IMG/VR virus record: IMGVR_UViG_3300020448_000021
Span: 1 to 32,290 of that record
DNA length: 32,290 nt
Direction: 5' to 3' (one strand)
From: a virus
Positions within the stretch are counted from its first letter, which is position 1. Every line of letters begins with the position of its first letter. The position numbers were made by a program, and so were the translations under genes. Positions 8,189 through 26,116 of this stretch are shown piece by piece. The notes under the pieces are model-generated. The model did no database searches. It saw nothing but the letters and a program-made list of their open reading frames with translations, and was not told the origin of the DNA.

Positions 8189-8427
8189 TGGATCAGTTAT
8201 CGCTATTTGAACACTTTATAAAAATACTTAAACAGAGACAGGAGGACGTTAAAGAATTAATGGCCAGAGGAGCTGTTGACAGTATGACTAAATACAATTA
8301 TATGTTAGGACAGATAAGAACCTATGAAGGTTTATTACAGGAAATATCCACCCTGCTAGATAAAAAGGAGCAAAATGAAAAAGGAACAGTCGTCAGTATC
8401 AAATCAAAAAGTGATACTACCAAATAA
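8188..8427 (+). CDS. Small helical protein (RQEDVKELMARGAVDSM type)
   Basis: 79 residues, coupled to the preceding gene by TAATG. Two helices (about 4-30 and 38-66) are separated by the GAVDSMTKYNYMLGQI region. Proteins of this length with an RQE-V-GAVD pattern accompany the GIGEHPQH protein in related phages, in my recollection. The pair may form one complex. The C-terminal 17 residues overlap the co-chaperonin start and are Lys/Ser-rich. No enzymatic motif. Confidence 0.7.
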   Translation: MDQLSLFEHFIKILKQRQEDVKELMARGAVDSMTKYNYMLGQIRTYEGLLQEISTLLDKKEQNEKGTVVSIKSKSDTTK

Positions 8428-8794
8428 AGAACTCGTTGGAGTTAAAAAAGAAATTAACGAATCATCAAAACTACCTAATCCAACAGGTTGGAGAATATTA
8501 GTTTTACCTTTTAAACAAAAAGAAAAAACTAAAGGTGGTTTAATATTAGCTGATGAAACAGTAGAACGATCACAAGTAGCATCGACTTGTGGTTTAGTCT
8601 TATCTATGGGCCCACACTGCTATGATAAAGAAAGATATCCAGAAGGTCCATGGTGTAAAAAAGGTGATTGGATTATCTTTGCAAGATACGCCGGATCACG
8701 AATTAAAATAGATGGGGGTGAGATAAGACTTCTCAATGATGATGAAGTTTTAGCGACCGTGGAAAACCCTGAAGATATATTCCACGAATTTTAA
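8375..8794 (+). CDS. GroES-like co-chaperonin
   Basis: 139 residues. From about residue 35 it follows the GroES (Cpn10) beta-barrel: PTGWRILVLPF as the first strand; a mobile loop at about 47-66 whose GGLIL matches the GG-IVL segment of GroES that contacts GroEL; then CGLVLSMGP, KKGDWIIFARYAG and EIRLLNDDEVLATVENPEDI, matching the barrel end and GroES C-terminus. An N-terminal extension of about 35 residues and an insertion at 80-96 (HCYDKERYPEGPW) are unusual for host GroES. Phages such as T4 (gp31) use such proteins to let host GroEL fold the capsid protein. The place before scaffold and capsid genes fits that role. AAGGAG lies four bases upstream of the start. It overlaps the preceding gene by 53 bp. 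Confidence 0.85.
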   Translation: MKKEQSSVSNQKVILPNKELVGVKKEINESSKLPNPTGWRILVLPFKQKEKTKGGLILADETVERSQVASTCGLVLSMGPHCYDKERYPEGPWCKKGDWIIFARYAGSRIKIDGGEIRLLNDDEVLATVENPEDIFHEF

Positions 8795-17986: not shown

Positions 17987-18357
17987 TGGCATTTTTTTGT
18001 AAAATAGATGAAAATAATATTGTAAAAAATATAGAGGTTGTTGATAATAGTATAGCAACAACAGAAGAAGCAGGTATTGCTTTTCTAAAAGAATTACATG
18101 GACAACAATTTAATTATAAACAAATGGGTTCAGCACCATTTATATCTAATGGAGTTGAAACAACTAGAAACTATGGTGGAATAAATTTTACTTATGATGA
18201 AAGTTTAAATATATTTATTGAACCAAAACCTTTTGATTCTTGGATATTAAATGAATCAACAGGTATATATCATGCACCTGTAGATTATCCTAATGATGGA
18301 AAAGTTTATTCTTGGAATGAAGAAAATCAAACTTGGGATGAAATAAACGATGAGTGA
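17986..18357 (+). CDS. Conserved fibre-linked protein
   Basis: 123 residues. It contains FCKIDENNIVKNIEVVDNSI, EAGIAFLKELHG, ETTRNYGGINFTYDESLNIF, IEPKPFDSWILNESTGIYHA and PVDYPNDGKVYSWNEENQTW. I associate the RNY-GIGYTYD---FIPPKP--SW pattern with a small protein common beside cyanophage and marine phage fibre genes. A role as fibre chaperone or small distal protein is possible; I do not know it. It overlaps the next gene by eight bases (ATGAGTGA) and the preceding gene by TAATG. Confidence 0.74.
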   Translation: MAFFCKIDENNIVKNIEVVDNSIATTEEAGIAFLKELHGQQFNYKQMGSAPFISNGVETTRNYGGINFTYDESLNIFIEPKPFDSWILNESTGIYHAPVDYPNDGKVYSWNEENQTWDEINDE

Positions 18358-19180
18358 AGTAAAAGTAAATAAGATAAGTCCAAGATCAGGAACAAATGTA
18401 CAGCTAGGAGATAGTGGAGATACTATAACTATTCCTGCAGGTGCAACATTTGCTGGAACACAGAACATTGCAAACTCAGCCCTTACAGGATCAGGACAAA
18501 TTACAATCAATGGTCAAGCAGTAGCTCTTGGTGGATCAGTAACTATATCTACAATTGCTAGACCAACTTATAACTCAGGCCAAAGTTTTACAATTCCACC
18601 AACTACAAATACTTCTATAACTATTGCAGGAACTAATTTTCAATCTGTGCCTATTGTTGAAGCAATAAATAATTCAACAGGTGCAATAACAAGAGCAGTA
18701 ACTGTATCTTTTTCAAGTGCATCTTCTATTGCAGCCGTGTTTAATTTAGCTGCAGGATCGTATTTTATTAGAATTGAAAACAATGATGGTGGTGCTGTAA
18801 GATCTACAAATGCAGATTTAACAGCGTCTACTTCACCATCTTGGTCTACATCAGCAGGATCACTAGGTTCATTTAGTGCAGGATCAACTATCTCTGGATT
18901 GAATGTTCAAGCATCTTCTGATAGTAACGTAACTATAACTGAAACAACGTCGGTGTTGACGTCAAACTCAAATACGCCAGCAACGACTATGAATTTAACT
19001 TTGTCTGGAACTCCAGCAAGCAGTGCAACTTATACAATAAGTGGTACGGCACCATCACCTACAAGTGATCAAACGTACAACTTTACATTAAGAGCAACAG
19101 ACGCTGAAGGACAGACCGCTGACAGAGCATTTAGTATTACAATATCTGTTGGTGCTAATAATTCAGGACAGTTTAACTAG
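18350..19180 (+). CDS. Tail fibre A (anchor, IPT/TIG-like, Ig-like)
   Basis: 276 residues. The anchor (1-70) repeats that of the 16481 fibre: VNKISPRSGTNVQLGDSGDT, then IPAGATF, then INGQAVALGGSVTI. Residues about 75-158 form an IPT/TIG-like domain (SITIAGTNFQSVPIVEAINN ... YFIRIENNDGGAV), and 165-272 an Ig-like domain of the He_PIG type ending YNFTLRATDAEGQTADRAFS, with GQFN at the end. It is paralogous to the 21638 protein over both Ig-like domains. It ends in TAG and is in the same frame as the following gene with no other stop between, so read-through would fuse it to the lectin gene. Confidence 0.78.
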   Translation: MSEVKVNKISPRSGTNVQLGDSGDTITIPAGATFAGTQNIANSALTGSGQITINGQAVALGGSVTISTIARPTYNSGQSFTIPPTTNTSITIAGTNFQSVPIVEAINNSTGAITRAVTVSFSSASSIAAVFNLAAGSYFIRIENNDGGAVRSTNADLTASTSPSWSTSAGSLGSFSAGSTISGLNVQASSDSNVTITETTSVLTSNSNTPATTMNLTLSGTPASSATYTISGTAPSPTSDQTYNFTLRATDAEGQTADRAFSITISVGANNSGQFN

Positions 19181-19189
19181 GATAATATT

Positions 19190-20569
19190 ATGGCAAATAG
19201 TTATTTAAGTAAAAGTGCAAGTAGTGGAAATAGCACAACTTTTACAATTTCAGCTTGGATAAAAAGAACTGTTACTGGCACAGCTACACAAATATTTAAT
19301 GCTCATAAAGCTGATAGTATAGCAGGTCATACAAATTTTGGTATTGATTCTAATGATAGATTAGATCTAAGTACATGGAGTGTAAATGTTTTGACTACTA
19401 ATAGAAGATTAAGAGATACTAATGGTTTCTATCATGTTGTTGTTCAAGTTGATTCTACAAACTCAACTGCGGATGATAGGGTAAAAATGTGGATTAATGG
19501 CCAACAGGAAACATCATTTTCTACAAGAAATAATCCAAGTTCTAGTCAAGCATTTTCAGTAAATGATGCTGCTAGTACACATACTGTTGGAGCAGGTAAT
19601 CAGGGCAGTGGTCGAGTTCAATATTTTAATGGTTATATGAGTCATTTCGTTTTAGTAGATGGTAGTGTTGTAGCACCTACAGAGTTTGGTGAAACAGATT
19701 CTACATCAGGTATTTGGAAATTTAAAACACCAAGTGGTGTTACATTTGGCACAAATGGTGTTCATTTAAAATTTGAAAACTCTGCAGCACTTGGCACAGA
19801 TAGTTCTGGTAACTCAAATACATTTACGGTTAATGGAAATTTAAAACAAGCACTTGATACACCATCAAATGTTCATGCTACATTTAATCCTTTAATAAAC
19901 CCTAATGGTGCAACTTTAGCAAATGGTAATACACATTCTAGTAAATCTGGAACCCATGCTATAGTACAAAGCACAATAGCTTGTGGTTATCCAAACGCAC
20001 CATCAACAGCTAAATTTTATTGGGAATGTAAAATGGAAGCAACAGATGGAAGAACTGTTGGTTTAATAAAATCAAATATACAACAAATTTCATCATGGTA
20101 TAATGATTATTTAGGTCAAAATTCTGGTGGAGATGGAATTATAGGTTATTATCTTGGAACTTATGTAGATTCTACAAATAGTACAGTTGCTTATAATGGA
20201 AATGGGTCAGCAATTACTATTTCTACTGGATTTTCAGCAGGAGATATAATGGTTCATGCTTATGATGCTAGTACAGGAAAATACTGGCAAGGTAAAAATG
20301 GAGTATGGTTTACAGTTGGTGGTGGAGTTGGAAATCCTGCAACAGGTGCATATCCTTTAGTTACATTAAACGCAACAGATAGAACACATGATATTTTTCC
20401 TGCCGATAGCTCACTAGATGGAAGATGGTCATGGAATTTTGGTAATGGTTATTTTAAAACAACAGCTATAACTTCTGCAGGTTCAAATGGTAATGGAAGT
20501 TTATTTGAATATGATGTACCATCTGGATATTACGCATTAAATACAAAAAATATTAACACTTATGGATAA
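19190..20569 (+). CDS. Tail fibre B (LamG-like and SPRY-like lectin domains)
   Basis: 459 residues. The first 215 look like a concanavalin A/LamG domain: TTFTISAWIKR, FYHVVVQVDS, VKMWINGQQET, and FNGYMSHFVLVDGS. The second half (about 225-450) resembles a SPRY-type beta sandwich: KFYWECKMEATDGRTVGLI, GKYWQGKNGVWFTVGGGVG, and WSWNFGNGYFKTTAI. Both folds often bind sugars, so it probably recognises cell-surface glycan. The paralogue at 22813 has the same domains. No strong ribosome binding site precedes it (TAGGATAATATT), which fits coupling to or read-through from gene A. Confidence 0.78.
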   Translation: MANSYLSKSASSGNSTTFTISAWIKRTVTGTATQIFNAHKADSIAGHTNFGIDSNDRLDLSTWSVNVLTTNRRLRDTNGFYHVVVQVDSTNSTADDRVKMWINGQQETSFSTRNNPSSSQAFSVNDAASTHTVGAGNQGSGRVQYFNGYMSHFVLVDGSVVAPTEFGETDSTSGIWKFKTPSGVTFGTNGVHLKFENSAALGTDSSGNSNTFTVNGNLKQALDTPSNVHATFNPLINPNGATLANGNTHSSKSGTHAIVQSTIACGYPNAPSTAKFYWECKMEATDGRTVGLIKSNIQQISSWYNDYLGQNSGGDGIIGYYLGTYVDSTNSTVAYNGNGSAITISTGFSAGDIMVHAYDASTGKYWQGKNGVWFTVGGGVGNPATGAYPLVTLNATDRTHDIFPADSSLDGRWSWNFGNGYFKTTAITSAGSNGNGSLFEYDVPSGYYALNTKNINTYG

Positions 20570-20574
20570 AAATT

Positions 20575-21636
20575 ATGGCATATAGTACAATTTCAAAACC
20601 TAGCTTACATTTTACTAGTTTACTAAGAACTGGAACTTATGGAAATGGGCAGACAACAACAGATTTTGCAACATTAGGATTTACACCAGATTGGTCTTGG
20701 ATGAAACCAAGAAATACTGCTGGATCACATGATCAAGCAGATATTGTTAGAGGAGCTGGACAAATGTTAAAAACAGATAGCACTGCTATGCAAACAGCTG
20801 GTGGTGCGGTAACAAGTTTTATTACCAATGGTATTCGTGTTACTACTAATAATGATTGGGGATCAAATATAAATATTGTTCATCATTTTTGGAAGTTGGG
20901 AGGAGCAGCATCTTCAAACTCAGATGGATCTGTAACTGCAAATGTTTCTGCTAATCAATCATCAGGAGTATCTATTGCTAGTTTTACAGGTACTGAAAGT
21001 GCAATAACTGTTGGACATGGTTTAGGTGTAGCACCATCTGTGTTTATAATAAGAAGATATACAGATGATGGTTATTCATCAACTTCAGAGTGGTACTTTT
21101 ATCATAAAAGTTTGGCATCAAATAAATATTTAACTTTACAATCAAGTGCTGCAACAGGAACAAATGATGGTTCTTTGTGGAATACATCAACTCCCGTTAC
21201 TGACTCCGTAATTAATATTGGTAACAATGCAAATTCAAACCATAGTGGTACATCTGTTCTTTTATATTCTTTTGCAGAAAAAAAAGGTTTTTCAAAATTT
21301 GGAAGCTACATAGGAAATGGAAATGCTGACGGGCCATTTATCTACACAGGATTTAAACCTGCGTTTTTAATAACAAAAAATACAAGTAGTGTAAATAATT
21401 GGACTATGTGTGATAACAAAAGAAGTACATTTAATCCTAATAATACAGTATTAAATCCAAATGTAAATTCTGCTGAAGCAACTAATAACCCACAAGATTT
21501 TTTATCTAATGGATTTAAAATAAGAGGAACTGAGGGTAATACAAATACAAGTGGAAATACATATATATACATGGCATTTGCAGAAGAACCTCTTGTGGCA
21601 AACGTAGGACAGAGTATACCAGCAACGGCAAAATAA
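20575..21636 (+). CDS. Tail fibre C (DUF7483-like)
   Basis: 353 residues of beta-rich sequence with the marks of a fibre family I associate with DUF7483: LGFTPDWSWMKPRNTAGSHD, a W-L repeat, VGHGLGVAPSVFIIRRYTD, FAEKKGFSKFGSYIGNGNAD, FIYTGFKPAFLITKNTSS, DFLSNGFKIRG and TYIYMAFAEEP, ending SIPATAK. The half repeats (GFTPDW at residue about 38 and GFKPAF at about 260) suggest an internally duplicated domain. The paralogue at 24204 keeps all these motifs. No ribosome binding site is obvious. It is probably the distal or receptor-binding part of the fibre. Confidence 0.76.
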   Translation: MAYSTISKPSLHFTSLLRTGTYGNGQTTTDFATLGFTPDWSWMKPRNTAGSHDQADIVRGAGQMLKTDSTAMQTAGGAVTSFITNGIRVTTNNDWGSNINIVHHFWKLGGAASSNSDGSVTANVSANQSSGVSIASFTGTESAITVGHGLGVAPSVFIIRRYTDDGYSSTSEWYFYHKSLASNKYLTLQSSAATGTNDGSLWNTSTPVTDSVINIGNNANSNHSGTSVLLYSFAEKKGFSKFGSYIGNGNADGPFIYTGFKPAFLITKNTSSVNNWTMCDNKRSTFNPNNTVLNPNVNSAEATNNPQDFLSNGFKIRGTEGNTNTSGNTYIYMAFAEEPLVANVGQSIPATAK

Positions 21637-21637
21637 T

Positions 21638-22813
21638 ATGAGTTCAATTTTAAAAGTAGATACGATACAAGACCAAAACGGTAATCTTATCATCAGTAAA
21701 GATTCTGGTGGTGGGGGTTTTCTTAGTCCTTATGCATCTGCTTCTGCTCCAATAGTATACACAGTTACTGTTGCAACTAAAACTACAGCACATCCGTATA
21801 GTGGTGTTGGTAGTTCTAATGCATATTTTATAAATGGTATTGAGGCACCTATCATAGAATTAAAAGGTAATGATACAGCAAAGCCATACTATTATAAGTT
21901 TGATCAATCAGACGCTTCTAATGGAAGTGGTGGTGGCCACCCTTTAAGATTCTATAATGATGCTGCTAAAACTACACAATTTACTACAGGTGTAACTACA
22001 TCTGGTACACCAGGCCAAGCAGGTGCACATACAACAATTGCTGTAGATAAAGATACACCTAGCATTTTATATTACCAATGTTCATCACACGCACACATGG
22101 GTAATCACACAATACATAATTCACCAACTATTAACACAGGTGTATTTTTAAAATTACCAACAGCTGATGGTACAGCGAATCAAGTTATATCTACTGACGG
22201 ATCAGGGACTTTGACTTTTTCTGATAGTGTTCTTTTTCCAACAATAGGATCTATTAGTCCAAGTGTTATAGAAAACACACAAACAGCTGTAACAATTACA
22301 GGTACAAATTTTAAAGATAGTTCAACACCACCTTTCGTTGATGCAATCAATGCATCTACTGGTGCAATTGTAACTGCAGACTCAGTATCATTTACAAACG
22401 CAACAACGGTTGTTGCAACATTTACATTACCAGTTGATGGTACATACTTTTTAAGATTAGAAAATAATGATGGTATTGCATGTAGATCAGGAACAGCTTT
22501 ACTTACTGTATCTGATGCACCTGTGTGGACGACTTCTGCAGGTAGTTTAGGAACAGTGGCCGCTACAGGAAGTGTCAACTTTACAGTTGCTGCAACAAAT
22601 GCTACAAGTTTTGCTAAGACAACCGGAAGTTTTCCAGGTGGCGTAAGTATTAATTCAAGCACCGGAGTAATATCTGGAACTGAGTCAGGGTCAACTGCTA
22701 CGACTACGTATACATTTACGATCCGAGCAACGGATGCGCAGGGCCAAACAGCTGATCGTCAGTTTACAATTACAATATCTCACGGCGCGTCGGGAGGAGG
22801 ACAATTTAACTAA
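21638..22813 (+). CDS. Tail fibre A' with cupredoxin-like insertion
   Basis: 391 residues. The N-terminus SSILKVDTIQDQNGNLIISK is a common phage fibre anchor. Residues about 40-160 look like a cupredoxin fold: a beta strand region with NGIEAPIIELKGNDT, then FDQSDASNGSGGGHPLRFYN, and finally ILYYQCSSHAHMGNH. His101, Cys148, His151 and Met154 match the order of blue-copper ligands (His, Cys, His, Met), although Cys-x2-His-x2-Met is two residues shorter than the plastocyanin loop. Then come an IPT/TIG-like domain (about 204-286) and an He_PIG Ig-like domain (about 292-385), both paralogous to the 18350 protein, and the same GQFN end. The start lies one base after the preceding stop with no clear binding site. 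Confidence 0.78.
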   Translation: MSSILKVDTIQDQNGNLIISKDSGGGGFLSPYASASAPIVYTVTVATKTTAHPYSGVGSSNAYFINGIEAPIIELKGNDTAKPYYYKFDQSDASNGSGGGHPLRFYNDAAKTTQFTTGVTTSGTPGQAGAHTTIAVDKDTPSILYYQCSSHAHMGNHTIHNSPTINTGVFLKLPTADGTANQVISTDGSGTLTFSDSVLFPTIGSISPSVIENTQTAVTITGTNFKDSSTPPFVDAINASTGAIVTADSVSFTNATTVVATFTLPVDGTYFLRLENNDGIACRSGTALLTVSDAPVWTTSAGSLGTVAATGSVNFTVAATNATSFAKTTGSFPGGVSINSSTGVISGTESGSTATTTYTFTIRATDAQGQTADRQFTITISHGASGGGQFN

Positions 22814-24204
22814 TGGTTACTAGAATACAAAGAACACAAGGAACAGGCACAAGCACAAAAAAATTTACTTTTTCTGGTTGGATAAAAAAAGCATCTAATA
22901 CAACAAGTAATGACCAAGTTGTTTTTGAAAGTAATAATGATGCTAATAACAGAATAACTACATATTTTAGAGGGTCTACTAATAATACATTTAATATATA
23001 TGGTGCTTTAAGTGGTAGTACAATTATTAATATAGAAACAACTAGACTGTTTAGAGATATTTCAGCTTGGTATCACATAGTTGTAGCTGTTGATACTACA
23101 CAAGGAACAGCAGCCGATAGAGTTAAAATATATGTTAATGGCACACAAGAAACTGCATTTAATTATACTTCAACATATCCAAGTCAAGATGCTAATTTAC
23201 CAATAGGTTCAAGTTCTTATGTCAATACTGTAGGTTATTATGCTCATGGAGGTAGTTCTGCTTTTGATGGTTGTATGAGCCATTTACATTTTATTGATGG
23301 TACAGCTTATTCTGCATCAACATTTGGTTCTACAGATGCCGCTACTGGTGAATGGAGTATAAAAACTGCTCCTAGTGTATCTTATGGAAATAATGGTTTC
23401 TTTATTTTAAAAGATGGTAATTCAGTTACAGACCAATCTGGTAATGGTAATAACTTAACAGTTGCTACTGGTACACTTACAAAAACAGAAGATTGTCCAA
23501 GCAATGTTTTTGCTACATTAAATCCTTTATTTGGTGCAGGGGGTCAATTTCCAACAATGTCAAATGGAAATACAACTAGCTACACTACTAATCTTGGGGT
23601 CGCAGGAACTTCTACACTAGGTGCATCATCTGGAAAATATTATGCTGAATTTAAACATAGTGCTTGTACTTCAGGTGGATCAAGTGAGGGAGCAATTGGT
23701 ATTTGTGATACTTATTTTATAAATAGTAATTCAAATTTAGGTGGAAGTAGCTCATCTGGTTATCAAGAATATTCTATTGCAAATTGGGGATTAAGAAATA
23801 CAAATGGTAGATTTTTTTATTCATCTGGTGGTTCAAAATATACAGCAGACAATCAACATGCAGGTTGGTCACTTGGCAATATTATAATGTTAGCATTAGA
23901 TTGTGATAACAATAGATTATATTTTGGTAAAAATGGTCAATGGTCATCAAGTAATACTTGGTCATCTTCTACACCATCACAATATATAACTATTGACCCA
24001 ACTAATTTTGAGGGAAATTATCATTTTGCTTGTGGCGATAGTAGTGGAGCAAATATTTCTACTTGGCAATGTAACTTTGGCAATGGCTACTTTGGAACAA
24101 CAGCAGTATCTAGTGCAGGAACTAACGCAAGTGGAATAGGAATATTTGAATATGATGTACCAACAGGCTATACTGCTTTATCAACAAAAGGATTAAATTT
24201 ATAA
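22813..24204 (+). CDS. Tail fibre B' (LamG-like and SPRY-like lectin domains)
   Basis: 463 residues, paralogous to the 19190 protein across its whole length. The LamG part has KKFTFSGWIKKAS, WYHIVVAVDTTQGTAADRVK, IYVNGTQETAFN and FDGCMSHLHFIDGTAYSAS. The SPRY-like part has GKYYAEFKHSACTSGGSSEG, LYFGKNGQWSSSNTW, and STWQCNFGNGYFGTTAVSSA. It ends YTALSTKGLNL. Divergence from B is highest in the loops, as expected for receptor-binding surfaces. The start shares a base with the preceding stop (TAATG), and the end overlaps gene C' likewise. Confidence 0.78.
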   Translation: MVTRIQRTQGTGTSTKKFTFSGWIKKASNTTSNDQVVFESNNDANNRITTYFRGSTNNTFNIYGALSGSTIINIETTRLFRDISAWYHIVVAVDTTQGTAADRVKIYVNGTQETAFNYTSTYPSQDANLPIGSSSYVNTVGYYAHGGSSAFDGCMSHLHFIDGTAYSASTFGSTDAATGEWSIKTAPSVSYGNNGFFILKDGNSVTDQSGNGNNLTVATGTLTKTEDCPSNVFATLNPLFGAGGQFPTMSNGNTTSYTTNLGVAGTSTLGASSGKYYAEFKHSACTSGGSSEGAIGICDTYFINSNSNLGGSSSSGYQEYSIANWGLRNTNGRFFYSSGGSKYTADNQHAGWSLGNIIMLALDCDNNRLYFGKNGQWSSSNTWSSSTPSQYITIDPTNFEGNYHFACGDSSGANISTWQCNFGNGYFGTTAVSSAGTNASGIGIFEYDVPTGYTALSTKGLNL

Positions 24205-25226
24205 TGGCATACACAACAATTAATAAATCTACAGATTATTTTAATACTAAACTTTATACAGGTAATTCAACAGCAAAAAATATAACAGGTGTTGGATTTC
24301 AGCCTGACTGGGTCTGGGTAAAAAATCGTACAACTGCTGACACCCATGTTTTATTTGATGCTGTTAGAGGAGCTAATAAAAGATTATCTTCATCAGGCAC
24401 TACAGCAGAACAAACAACATCAAATGAACTAACTGGATTTTTAGCTGATGGTTTTTCTATCGGAGATGGGGATAATGTTAATAGAGGGCCATCTGATAAT
24501 ATTGTATCGTGGAACTGGAAAGCAAATGGTGCAGGTTCATCAAATTCATCAGGTTCTGTATCTGCAACTGTTTCAGCAAATACAACAGCAGGTTTTTCAA
24601 TTTCAACATTTACAACTCCAGCTTCAGGAACATTTACTGTTGGTCATGGTTTAGGTGTTGCACCAAAAATGATTATAGCTAGATGCTATAATATATCTAG
24701 TGATTGGATTTGTGGTCATGATTCTGTAGGTTGGACATACCAATTAACTTTAAATAGCAATGCAGCAAAAGCAGACCAACCTGCCTTTAATGACACTGCT
24801 CCTACAAGTACAGTATGGACAGGAAATACAGCAAATTTTGGTGCAGGTTATACAGGGTTAGCCTACTGCTTCGCAGAGAAAAAAGGCTACTCAAAATTTG
24901 GTTCTTATACTGGCAATGGAAATGCAGATGGAACATTTGTTTACACAGGATTTGCTCCTGCATTTGTTTTACAAAAAAATCATACCGGTGCTAATGATTG
25001 GACTTTAGCTGATAATAAAAGACCAGGGTATAATGAAAACAACAAAAGACTTGTTCCTAATTCTAATGCAGTAGAAGCAACAAATAATGCAATAGATCTT
25101 CTTTCTAATGGTTTTAAATGTAGGCAAGACCAATCAAATGCAAATGGTAGTGGACAAACATATATCTACATGGCATTTGGACAGAGCATAGTTGGCAGTA
25201 ATAATATTCCGGCGACGGCCAGGTAG
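24204..25226 (+). CDS. Tail fibre C' (DUF7483-like)
   Basis: 340 residues, paralogous to the 20575 protein. Shared motifs in order: VGFQPDWVWVKNRTTADTHV, VGHGLGVAPKMIIARCYN, FAEKKGYSKFGSYTGNGNAD, FVYTGFAPAFVLQKNHTGAN, DLLSNGFKCRQ, YIYMAFGQS and the terminal NNIPATAR. The best conserved part is the C-terminal third. The long Ser/Ala-rich linker (NGAGSSNSSGSVSATVSANT) in the middle matches that of C. It ends in TAG six bases before the beta-repeat gene. Together with A' and B' it makes the second copy of the fibre cassette. Confidence 0.76.
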   Translation: MAYTTINKSTDYFNTKLYTGNSTAKNITGVGFQPDWVWVKNRTTADTHVLFDAVRGANKRLSSSGTTAEQTTSNELTGFLADGFSIGDGDNVNRGPSDNIVSWNWKANGAGSSNSSGSVSATVSANTTAGFSISTFTTPASGTFTVGHGLGVAPKMIIARCYNISSDWICGHDSVGWTYQLTLNSNAAKADQPAFNDTAPTSTVWTGNTANFGAGYTGLAYCFAEKKGYSKFGSYTGNGNADGTFVYTGFAPAFVLQKNHTGANDWTLADNKRPGYNENNKRLVPNSNAVEATNNAIDLLSNGFKCRQDQSNANGSGQTYIYMAFGQSIVGSNNIPATAR

Positions 25227-25232
25227 GCCGCC

Positions 25233-25871
25233 ATGTACTTCGGTGCTACACCCTTTTCAGCATCAGCCTTTTCAGATGTAGGCTTCAATCCTAATGCATT
25301 CGTAGGAGTAGAGGGCGTTAGACTAAACGTCGGTATTGGTAATTCAACAATTGTTGGTGACGCTAATTTTTCTGTAACTGGAAATAAAGTTAACATATCT
25401 ACAGGTAATGTAACCATTGTAGGTAAAGCAGTAGAGGTCCTAACAGGACAAGGTCTTGAACTTGGTATTGGTAATGCGCAAGCATCTATACCTAAAGACG
25501 TACCGGTAACTGGTAATGGTTTTGAAATAGATAATGGTACAGTAACCACAAAAGCAGGTGCCGTGCCTCCTATAACGGGGATCAGGGCAAATATAGCAAC
25601 TGGCGCTGTATCAATAATCGGTAAGTGTAATCTAACAGTAACAGGTAGTGGCTTTGAGGTAGCTCTAGGTAACGCTACAGCTAAGGCAAATGCTACAGCT
25701 ATCGTATCTGGTAAAGGATTTACAGTATCTACAAGCGATGTTACTGTAGTTGCAAAAGCAAAAGCTTTACCTTCTGGTGAAGGGTTTAAAATAGGCACAT
25801 CTGATATCACAATAAGACAGTGGGATAAGGTGCCAGTAAACGCAACACAAACCTGGACGGAGTTACCATAA
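25233..25871 (+). CDS. Beta-repeat virion protein with eight units of 22 residues
   Basis: 212 residues. A short N-terminal tag (MYFGATPFSASAFSDVG) is followed by about eight consecutive units of 22 residues (25-200), with a Gly at 28, 50, 72, 94, 116, 138, 160 and 182. A unit reads roughly V-TG-x-G-hydrophobic-x-x-x-x-G-x-V-x-hydrophobic, for example SVTGNKVNISTGNVTIVGKA. The C-terminal cap is IRQWDKVPVNATQTWTEL. Such repeats suggest a beta-solenoid or an elongated trimeric stalk. The next gene encodes a short form with the same tag and cap. No binding site is clear before the start. The function is unknown; a fibre or spike component is likely. Confidence 0.74.
   Translation: MYFGATPFSASAFSDVGFNPNAFVGVEGVRLNVGIGNSTIVGDANFSVTGNKVNISTGNVTIVGKAVEVLTGQGLELGIGNAQASIPKDVPVTGNGFEIDNGTVTTKAGAVPPITGIRANIATGAVSIIGKCNLTVTGSGFEVALGNATAKANATAIVSGKGFTVSTSDVTVVAKAKALPSGEGFKIGTSDITIRQWDKVPVNATQTWTELP
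25305..25832 (+). repeat. Eight tandem 66 bp coding units (22-residue repeat)
   Basis: Protein-level repeats with an exact 66-base period inside the 25233 gene, in-frame throughout. The DNA units are strongly diverged, so the repeat is visible mainly from the spacing of Gly codons and the alternating hydrophobic pattern. No unit is interrupted, and the period is kept without insertions from residue 25 to 200. Confidence 0.7.
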
Positions 25872-26116
25872 TGTTATTCGGAGCAACACCTTTCGCATCA
25901 ACAACATTTGCAGGAGTAGGATCTCAAAATGTGGTTGTTTTAGTTAATGGTAAAAGAGTTAATATTAGTGTAGGTAATAGTGCAGTAGGTTTTGGTGCAA
26001 GGCCATCTGGTAACGGATTTAAACTTGCCAATGGTACCGTTAATGTGGTATCTTGGAACGATATAGATCCAAACGCAACAGGGGTGTGGGTCCCAATAGA
26101 CCCATTGAACCCATAG
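25871..26116 (+). CDS. Short paralogue of the beta-repeat protein
   Basis: 81 residues, coupled to the preceding gene by TAATG. The N-terminal tag MLFGATPFASTTFAGVG matches that of the 25233 protein, and the C-terminal cap VVSWNDIDPNATGVWVPID matches its cap (W-x-x-I/V-x-P/V-NAT-x-x-W). Only about two repeat units lie between (VNGKRVNISVGNS ... RPSGNGFKLANGTVNV), with the second Gly spaced by 20 instead of 22. The two genes thus differ mostly in repeat number, as expected from unequal crossing-over or slippage. A short spike or an end cap for the longer protein is possible. Confidence 0.72.
   Translation: MLFGATPFASTTFAGVGSQNVVVLVNGKRVNISVGNSAVGFGARPSGNGFKLANGTVNVVSWNDIDPNATGVWVPIDPLNP

Follow-up and report, generated by a model that had tools for sequence, protein, structure and literature searches.

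A predicted cupredoxin domain with a complete type-1 ligand set in a phage tail fibre

The virus record IMGVR_UViG_3300020448_000021 (32,290 bases), whose full length is the window analysed here, encodes a 391-aa tail-fibre-type protein. We consider it rather probable that residues 38-160 of this protein are a cupredoxin with the complete type-1 ligand set in an amicyanin-type loop, and that they act as a copper-stabilised structural or adhesive module of the fibre. Electron-transfer proteins and oxidases are the known settings of type-1 copper sites, and we found no report of such a site in a phage structural protein. A cupredoxin-like domain inside a tail fibre had been proposed in a preliminary description of this DNA, and the proposal is now supported by the predicted fold, by the invariance of the ligands and by profiles of a bridging sister branch, termed A7, and of cellular PF00127 proteins.

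The fibre protein and its genomic setting

Pelagiphages including HTVC023P and HTVC027P are relatives of the record at the DNA level, with partial matches over structural genes. The record encodes an SU10-like portal, a major head protein and a long series of tail- and fibre-type genes, and a phage-encoded GroES-like co-chaperonin lies at 8375-8794 (PF00166, E 1.2e-12). Because of the pelagiphage relatives and this set of portal, head, co-chaperonin and tail-fibre genes, SAR11 bacteria are the likely hosts. The tail genes of the cultured relative HTVC023P (L287, 35275-40225) have three genes for 2OG-Fe(II) oxygenases and one for a putative ferrochelatase in their vicinity. The window also holds two adjacent genes that are related to each other, 25233-25871 and 25871-26116 (41% over 63 aa). 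The product of the first contains internal repeats, and two parts of it are matched by the product of the second. The features of the fibre region, all on the plus strand, are as follows.

18350..19180, plus strand: paralogous fibre without cupredoxin domain (45% identity to aa 207-391 of the 21638 protein)
21638..22813, plus strand: tail-fibre-type protein, 391 aa (open reading frame; phrog_30742; PF05345; full-length AlphaFold2 model)
21638..21736, plus strand: N-terminal segment, aa 1-33 (SSILKVDTIQ...; pLDDT 41-51 for residues 1-30)
21749..22117, plus strand: predicted cupredoxin domain, aa 38-160 (AlphaFold2 model, Foldseek and VIA matches, 126 viral relatives)
21938..21940, plus strand: His101, candidate N-terminal His ligand (GHPLRF; invariant in alignments A1, A4 and A6)
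22079..22081, plus strand: Cys148, candidate thiolate ligand (sole conserved Cys of the protein)
22088..22090, plus strand: His151, candidate C-terminal His ligand (conserved; both His codons among relatives)
22097..22099, plus strand: Met154, candidate axial ligand (conserved in the alignments)
22127..22219, plus strand: beta linker, aa 164-194, containing LKLPTADGTANQVISTDGSGTLTF (short strands in the AlphaFold2 model)
22235..22510, plus strand: beta domain, aa 200-291 (high-confidence strands in the AlphaFold2 model)
22550..22780, plus strand: He_PIG (putative Ig) domain, aa 305-381 (PF05345, E 1e-10)
22813..25226, plus strand: two fibre-type genes downstream (phrog_27411/SPRY-like; DUF7483), with family matches and shared gene order

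Similarity to a fibre family, relatives annotated as tail fiber and fibre-type gene neighbours identify the product of 21638-22813 as a tail fibre protein; its residues 32-359 match phrog_30742, 'tail fiber protein', with E 1.7e-29. The full-length AlphaFold2 model (mean pLDDT 84.9) runs from a disordered N-terminus through the cupredoxin domain and the beta linker to a TIG/IPT-like region and the He_PIG Ig domain. Residues 1-33 are presumed to be an attachment head. The TIG/IPT-like character of residues 200-291 was assigned by eye from the sequence, and a Pfam search of this region gave no match.

The fibre gene heads a cassette of three genes, in the order cupredoxin fibre, phrog_27411/SPRY-like and DUF7483, which is found in the window and in many related loci. 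A cassette of this type (Ig fibre, phrog_27411/SPRY-like, DUF7483) stands in tandem at 18350-21636 and 21638-25226, with 33-47% protein identity between the copies, and the duplicated order is common to many relatives. In the window, the cupredoxin domain is confined to the second copy. The preliminary description had noted that the paralogous fibre at 18350 lacks the domain and had regarded the domain as the unit that was gained or lost. The domain is indeed absent there, but homology between the two proteins is confined to residues 207-391 of the 21638 protein and the whole N-terminal half differs, not the cupredoxin domain alone. The putative exchanged unit therefore comprises at least the head and the cupredoxin domain. 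Other relatives have the domain farther from the N-terminus, at about residue 105-126, on varied leading segments.

Predicted fold and similarity to copper proteins

A domain model (21734-22135) was computed by AlphaFold2 with alignment A4 as input. It is nearly all beta (mean pLDDT 93.8, pTM 0.88), and its predicted fold is a cupredoxin beta barrel, in line with the eight-stranded Greek-key barrel that defines the superfamily. A comparison with known cupredoxins had been suggested in advance, and Foldseek indeed returned cupredoxin folds throughout the top PDB matches, rusticyanin first (E 7.6e-4), followed by laccases, CuNIR, plastocyanin, nitrosocyanin and amicyanin. A VIA alignment to the cupredoxin domain of the Hyphomicrobium CuNIR 2dv6 gave Z 9.3 and an rmsd of 2.7 over 100 residues. 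The TM-scores to the structural matches were modest (0.4-0.5), perhaps due to an extra N-terminal stretch (aa ~50-66). In the model, His101 lies directly before a strand, Cys148 at a strand end, and His151 and Met154 in the loop preceding the last strand, a placement corresponding to the type-1 copper layout. The candidate ligands likewise follow the pattern His ... Cys-x(2-4)-His-x(2-4)-Met of type-1 copper proteins. Matches to the domain fold were also seen in BFVD among predicted 'beta-sandwich' proteins of giant viruses (Pithovirus LCPAC302/304, Marseillevirus LCMAC201/202; E 2.7e-8 and weaker).

Direct sequence comparisons gave much less. The window domain alone found nothing significant among PDB sequences, the 391-aa protein had no PF00127 match at the Pfam cut-off, and NCBIfam yielded plastocyanin at E 0.1 in one member and otherwise nothing useful. 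Sub-threshold matches to PF25489 (At5g54830-like), a domain that differs from the fibre domain in being named after a plant protein, occurred in 27 of 92 members, and that of the window member spans the ligand region. With the A4 profile, pseudoazurin ranked first in the PDB at no better than E 0.33, the Cys and His being aligned. The weakness of the direct Pfam and PDB matches is what could be said for a chance resemblance, in which the fold would be a generic beta-sandwich and its conserved residues unrelated. We give this reading hardly any credence, as it is contradicted by the structural results and by the profile-profile and bridging-family results that follow.

The bridging family A7 is a sister branch found in cyanophage structural proteins (P-HM1 and 30 contig relatives), and it keeps all four ligands. 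In a profile-profile comparison, A4 and A7 matched with a probability of 96.1 and E 3e-9, the H, C, H and M being aligned. All 31 A7 members match PF00127 (best E 2.8e-5). Against the PDB, A7 found CuNIR (2dv6; 6e-5), plastocyanin (6.5e-5) and amicyanin (about 0.01-0.02). The proteins of this branch (L310-L389, P-HM1-type) are plastocyanin-like, and most of their annotations read hypothetical or tail protein. A second bridge is provided by L267 and L270, cellular PF00127 proteins above the family cut-off that come from the same bacterial genomes as copies of the module. A4 matched them with a probability of 95 and E 3.9e-8, His, Cys and His being in register; the sequence of L270 reads HPFYIKT...YYYQCSLHNGMYG. 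Thus, His101 aligns with the His of PF00127 proteins as well as with that of A7. A third bridge is a single member that by itself matches the plastocyanin of PDB 1b3i (E 5.7e-5). With hhalign, A4 did not match the PF00127 proteins L263, L264, L269 and L271, which are azurin-like and have longer loops.

Conservation of the candidate ligands and distribution of the module

Relatives of the domain were collected from viral contigs (126) and bacterial assemblies (17 loci). Wider scans of viral contigs gave at least 590 (A2) and at least 552 (A3) relatives; the A2 patterns exclude the ligands, and the A3 pattern includes part of the Cys-His loop and is biased accordingly. The domain had been placed at residues 40-157 (21755-22108) with His101, Cys148, His151 and Met154 as ligands, and this placement and numbering are correct, the four residues being invariant positions in the full-length alignment A6.

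H and C-x2-H-x2-M-G are kept in 265 of the 269 related domains of the fetched loci. Two of the four exceptions are without the loop, frame or contig ending early; L208 has a loop longer by two residues, and L120 has lost two of the four ligands (His to Asp and Met to Leu). In 85 representatives selected at an 80% identity cut and without motif filter, all four ligands are 100% conserved. A4 (92 sequences, down to 30% identity), whose rows were pre-filtered for C..H..MG, is invariant at H, C, H, M and the next glycine and at no other column. The loop positions between the ligands are variable, position 153 being G, Y, L, H, N, A or F. Hence His, Cys and Met do not vary freely among homologues, and the ligand set first recognised from the sequence is not a product of chance. 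Both His codons are used by relatives at both His positions, which therefore points to purifying selection and not to recent copying. A disulphide within the protein was rejected as an explanation of Cys148, there being no second conserved Cys.

All four ligands are absent in the distant bacterial relatives L299, L301 and L302. The candidate ligands are retained or lost together, L120 being a partial exception, and this is predicted by a metal site and not by a packing role. Among very large cyanophage proteins, L296 (P-SSM2) and L297 (Bellamy) are cupredoxin-like and miss all four ligands.

These patterns bear on a competing reading, in which a genuine site is occupied in nature by another metal (Zn, Fe, Ag) or stays empty, the conserved residues serving loop packing and stability only. 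Cytoplasm, where the virion is assembled, holds very little free copper, and cupredoxin folds without copper exist; phage fibres, moreover, reportedly bind iron via HxH motifs (PMC11705849). On the other hand, it is the exact type-1 His-Cys-His-Met set that is invariant while its neighbours vary, the ligands are missing as a set where they are missing, and packing would not require a free Cys and Met. Thus, we judge another metal or a packing role to be unlikely, though the strongest of the competitors, and prefer a copper site.

Among 50,697 phage records, 22 match the window domain and 203 match a more central member. The tallied matches are all marine, from Synechococcus and Prochlorococcus phages, pelagiphages (Mosig, Baldr) and methylophages Melnitz, so that among phage records the module was found only in marine phages, namely cyanophages and phages of SAR11 and OM43. 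The plasmid collection held no match to the module, and a search of HTVC023P, the isolated relative, found no cupredoxin domain. The carriers of the module include phages of unrelated hosts, and it matches baseplate families as well as fibres. Among the bacterial copies, one (L095; contig C44 of G004, ~519650) comes from the single-cell genome of a Bacteroidetes, where it lies in a frame of 5,494 aa together with DUF285, FG-GAP and many Ig-like repeats. As this copy sits among Ig-like and other repeats, the module is predicted to serve cellular surface-type proteins, too.

The breadth of this distribution is relevant to the idea that a copper-loaded domain docks on a metal-uptake or redox protein of the host surface, a Trojan-horse adsorption. 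A precedent is the azurin of P. aeruginosa, a secreted protein that binds OprC, a TonB-dependent transporter of copper (PMC6907878), and a Ferrojan Horse idea already exists for phage iron. Against docking, the module is shared by phages of unrelated hosts and by baseplate as well as fibre families, and the loop residues beside His151 vary freely. Furthermore, of 31 genomes searched from one SAR11 genus, just 6 had a TonB-dependent receptor barrel, which makes such a role a poor fit for SAR11. Exploitation of a metal uptake system, raised in the preliminary description, is weakened by this count, and we consider docking improbable.

Proposed role and comparison with known systems

For the preferred copper-stabilised module, we infer copper occupancy, timing of loading, exposure and role as follows. 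The fibre would fold in the host cytoplasm with its metal site empty, and copper would enter from lysate, periplasm or seawater as the virion leaves. The bound metal would rigidify the His loop and the Cys-His-Met loop of an exposed module that has the N-terminal attachment segment on one side and the distal TIG/Ig domains on the other. Such a module would thus be a metal-stabilised structural or adhesive domain whose loop face may contact the host surface, a role that we favour for its parsimony. Another reading is a redox function, by which the domain would transfer electrons or deal with reactive oxygen. Type-1 sites in well-studied cupredoxins are electron carriers, and amicyanin is a case in point (PMC12723479). 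However, neither the fibre protein nor the cassette has a recognisable second redox centre, and the same module occurs in many unrelated structural proteins, which makes a redox function very improbable.

Hundreds of ocean virus sequences carry the module, which suggests that many marine phage tails may bind copper. More tentatively, and with less confidence than in the structural module itself, we propose that abundant marine phages, those of SAR11, Prochlorococcus, Synechococcus and OM43, possess functional type-1 copper sites on their tails that are metallated only outside the host and needed for fibre stability or adsorption. If so, virions would constitute a protein-bound pool of ocean copper and host recognition would be copper-dependent. 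Should the sites bind copper, the metal would be present on a large class of ocean virions. It could then influence the stability of the phages and their infection of hosts, and virions would act as seawater copper ligands, a role already suggested for them with iron. Both the small domain (~13 kDa) and cultured phages lend themselves to an easy test of this prediction. In virion proteomics, we found no proteome with a ligand-bearing member; S-CREM2, the one proteome that was checked, gave only a weak partial match, in one ORF. Cupredoxins in phage tails or virions were not described in the open-access literature that we searched, most subscription journals lying outside its scope.

Among known systems, amicyanin (type-1, PF00127) has the fold and the order and spacing His then Cys-x2-His-x2-Met in common with the fibre domain. 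Its ligands are His53, Cys92, His95 and Met98, which is exactly the spacing that had been regarded as shorter than that of the class, so that the loop is not unusual (PMC12723479). The same C-x2-H-x2-M spacing is present in 2vmj, one of the PDB matches, a CuNIR with a grafted CTPHPFM loop according to its entry title. In contrast to the fibre domain, amicyanin is a single-domain electron carrier without fibre context; it serves methylamine dehydrogenase, and no such partner is expected for a fibre. Moreover, His101 is followed by Pro, whereas Asn or Ser is adjacent to the His in amicyanin and rusticyanin (Asn in amicyanin). Plastocyanin and L267/L270 (HPFY...CS.H..MxG) have the ligand set, the HP motif at the first His and profile similarity in common with the fibre domain. 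L267 is small and L270 part of a large protein, both are cellular, and the fibre domain differs in its extra N-terminal stretch. Rusticyanin and the N-terminal cupredoxin domain of 2dv6 are the best structural matches, but the former is an electron-transfer protein and the latter an enzyme domain, with 12-17% identity to the fibre domain. Metal in a phage fibre has a precedent in iron sites with HxH motifs, reported in T4 gp37 and proposed for Alteromonas phage R22Y (PMC11705849). Like the site predicted here, they are metal sites in a phage tail fibre. The HxH site, however, is octahedral, formed by His only and occupied by iron, whereas the fibre domain is a predicted cupredoxin with Cys and Met among its candidate ligands.
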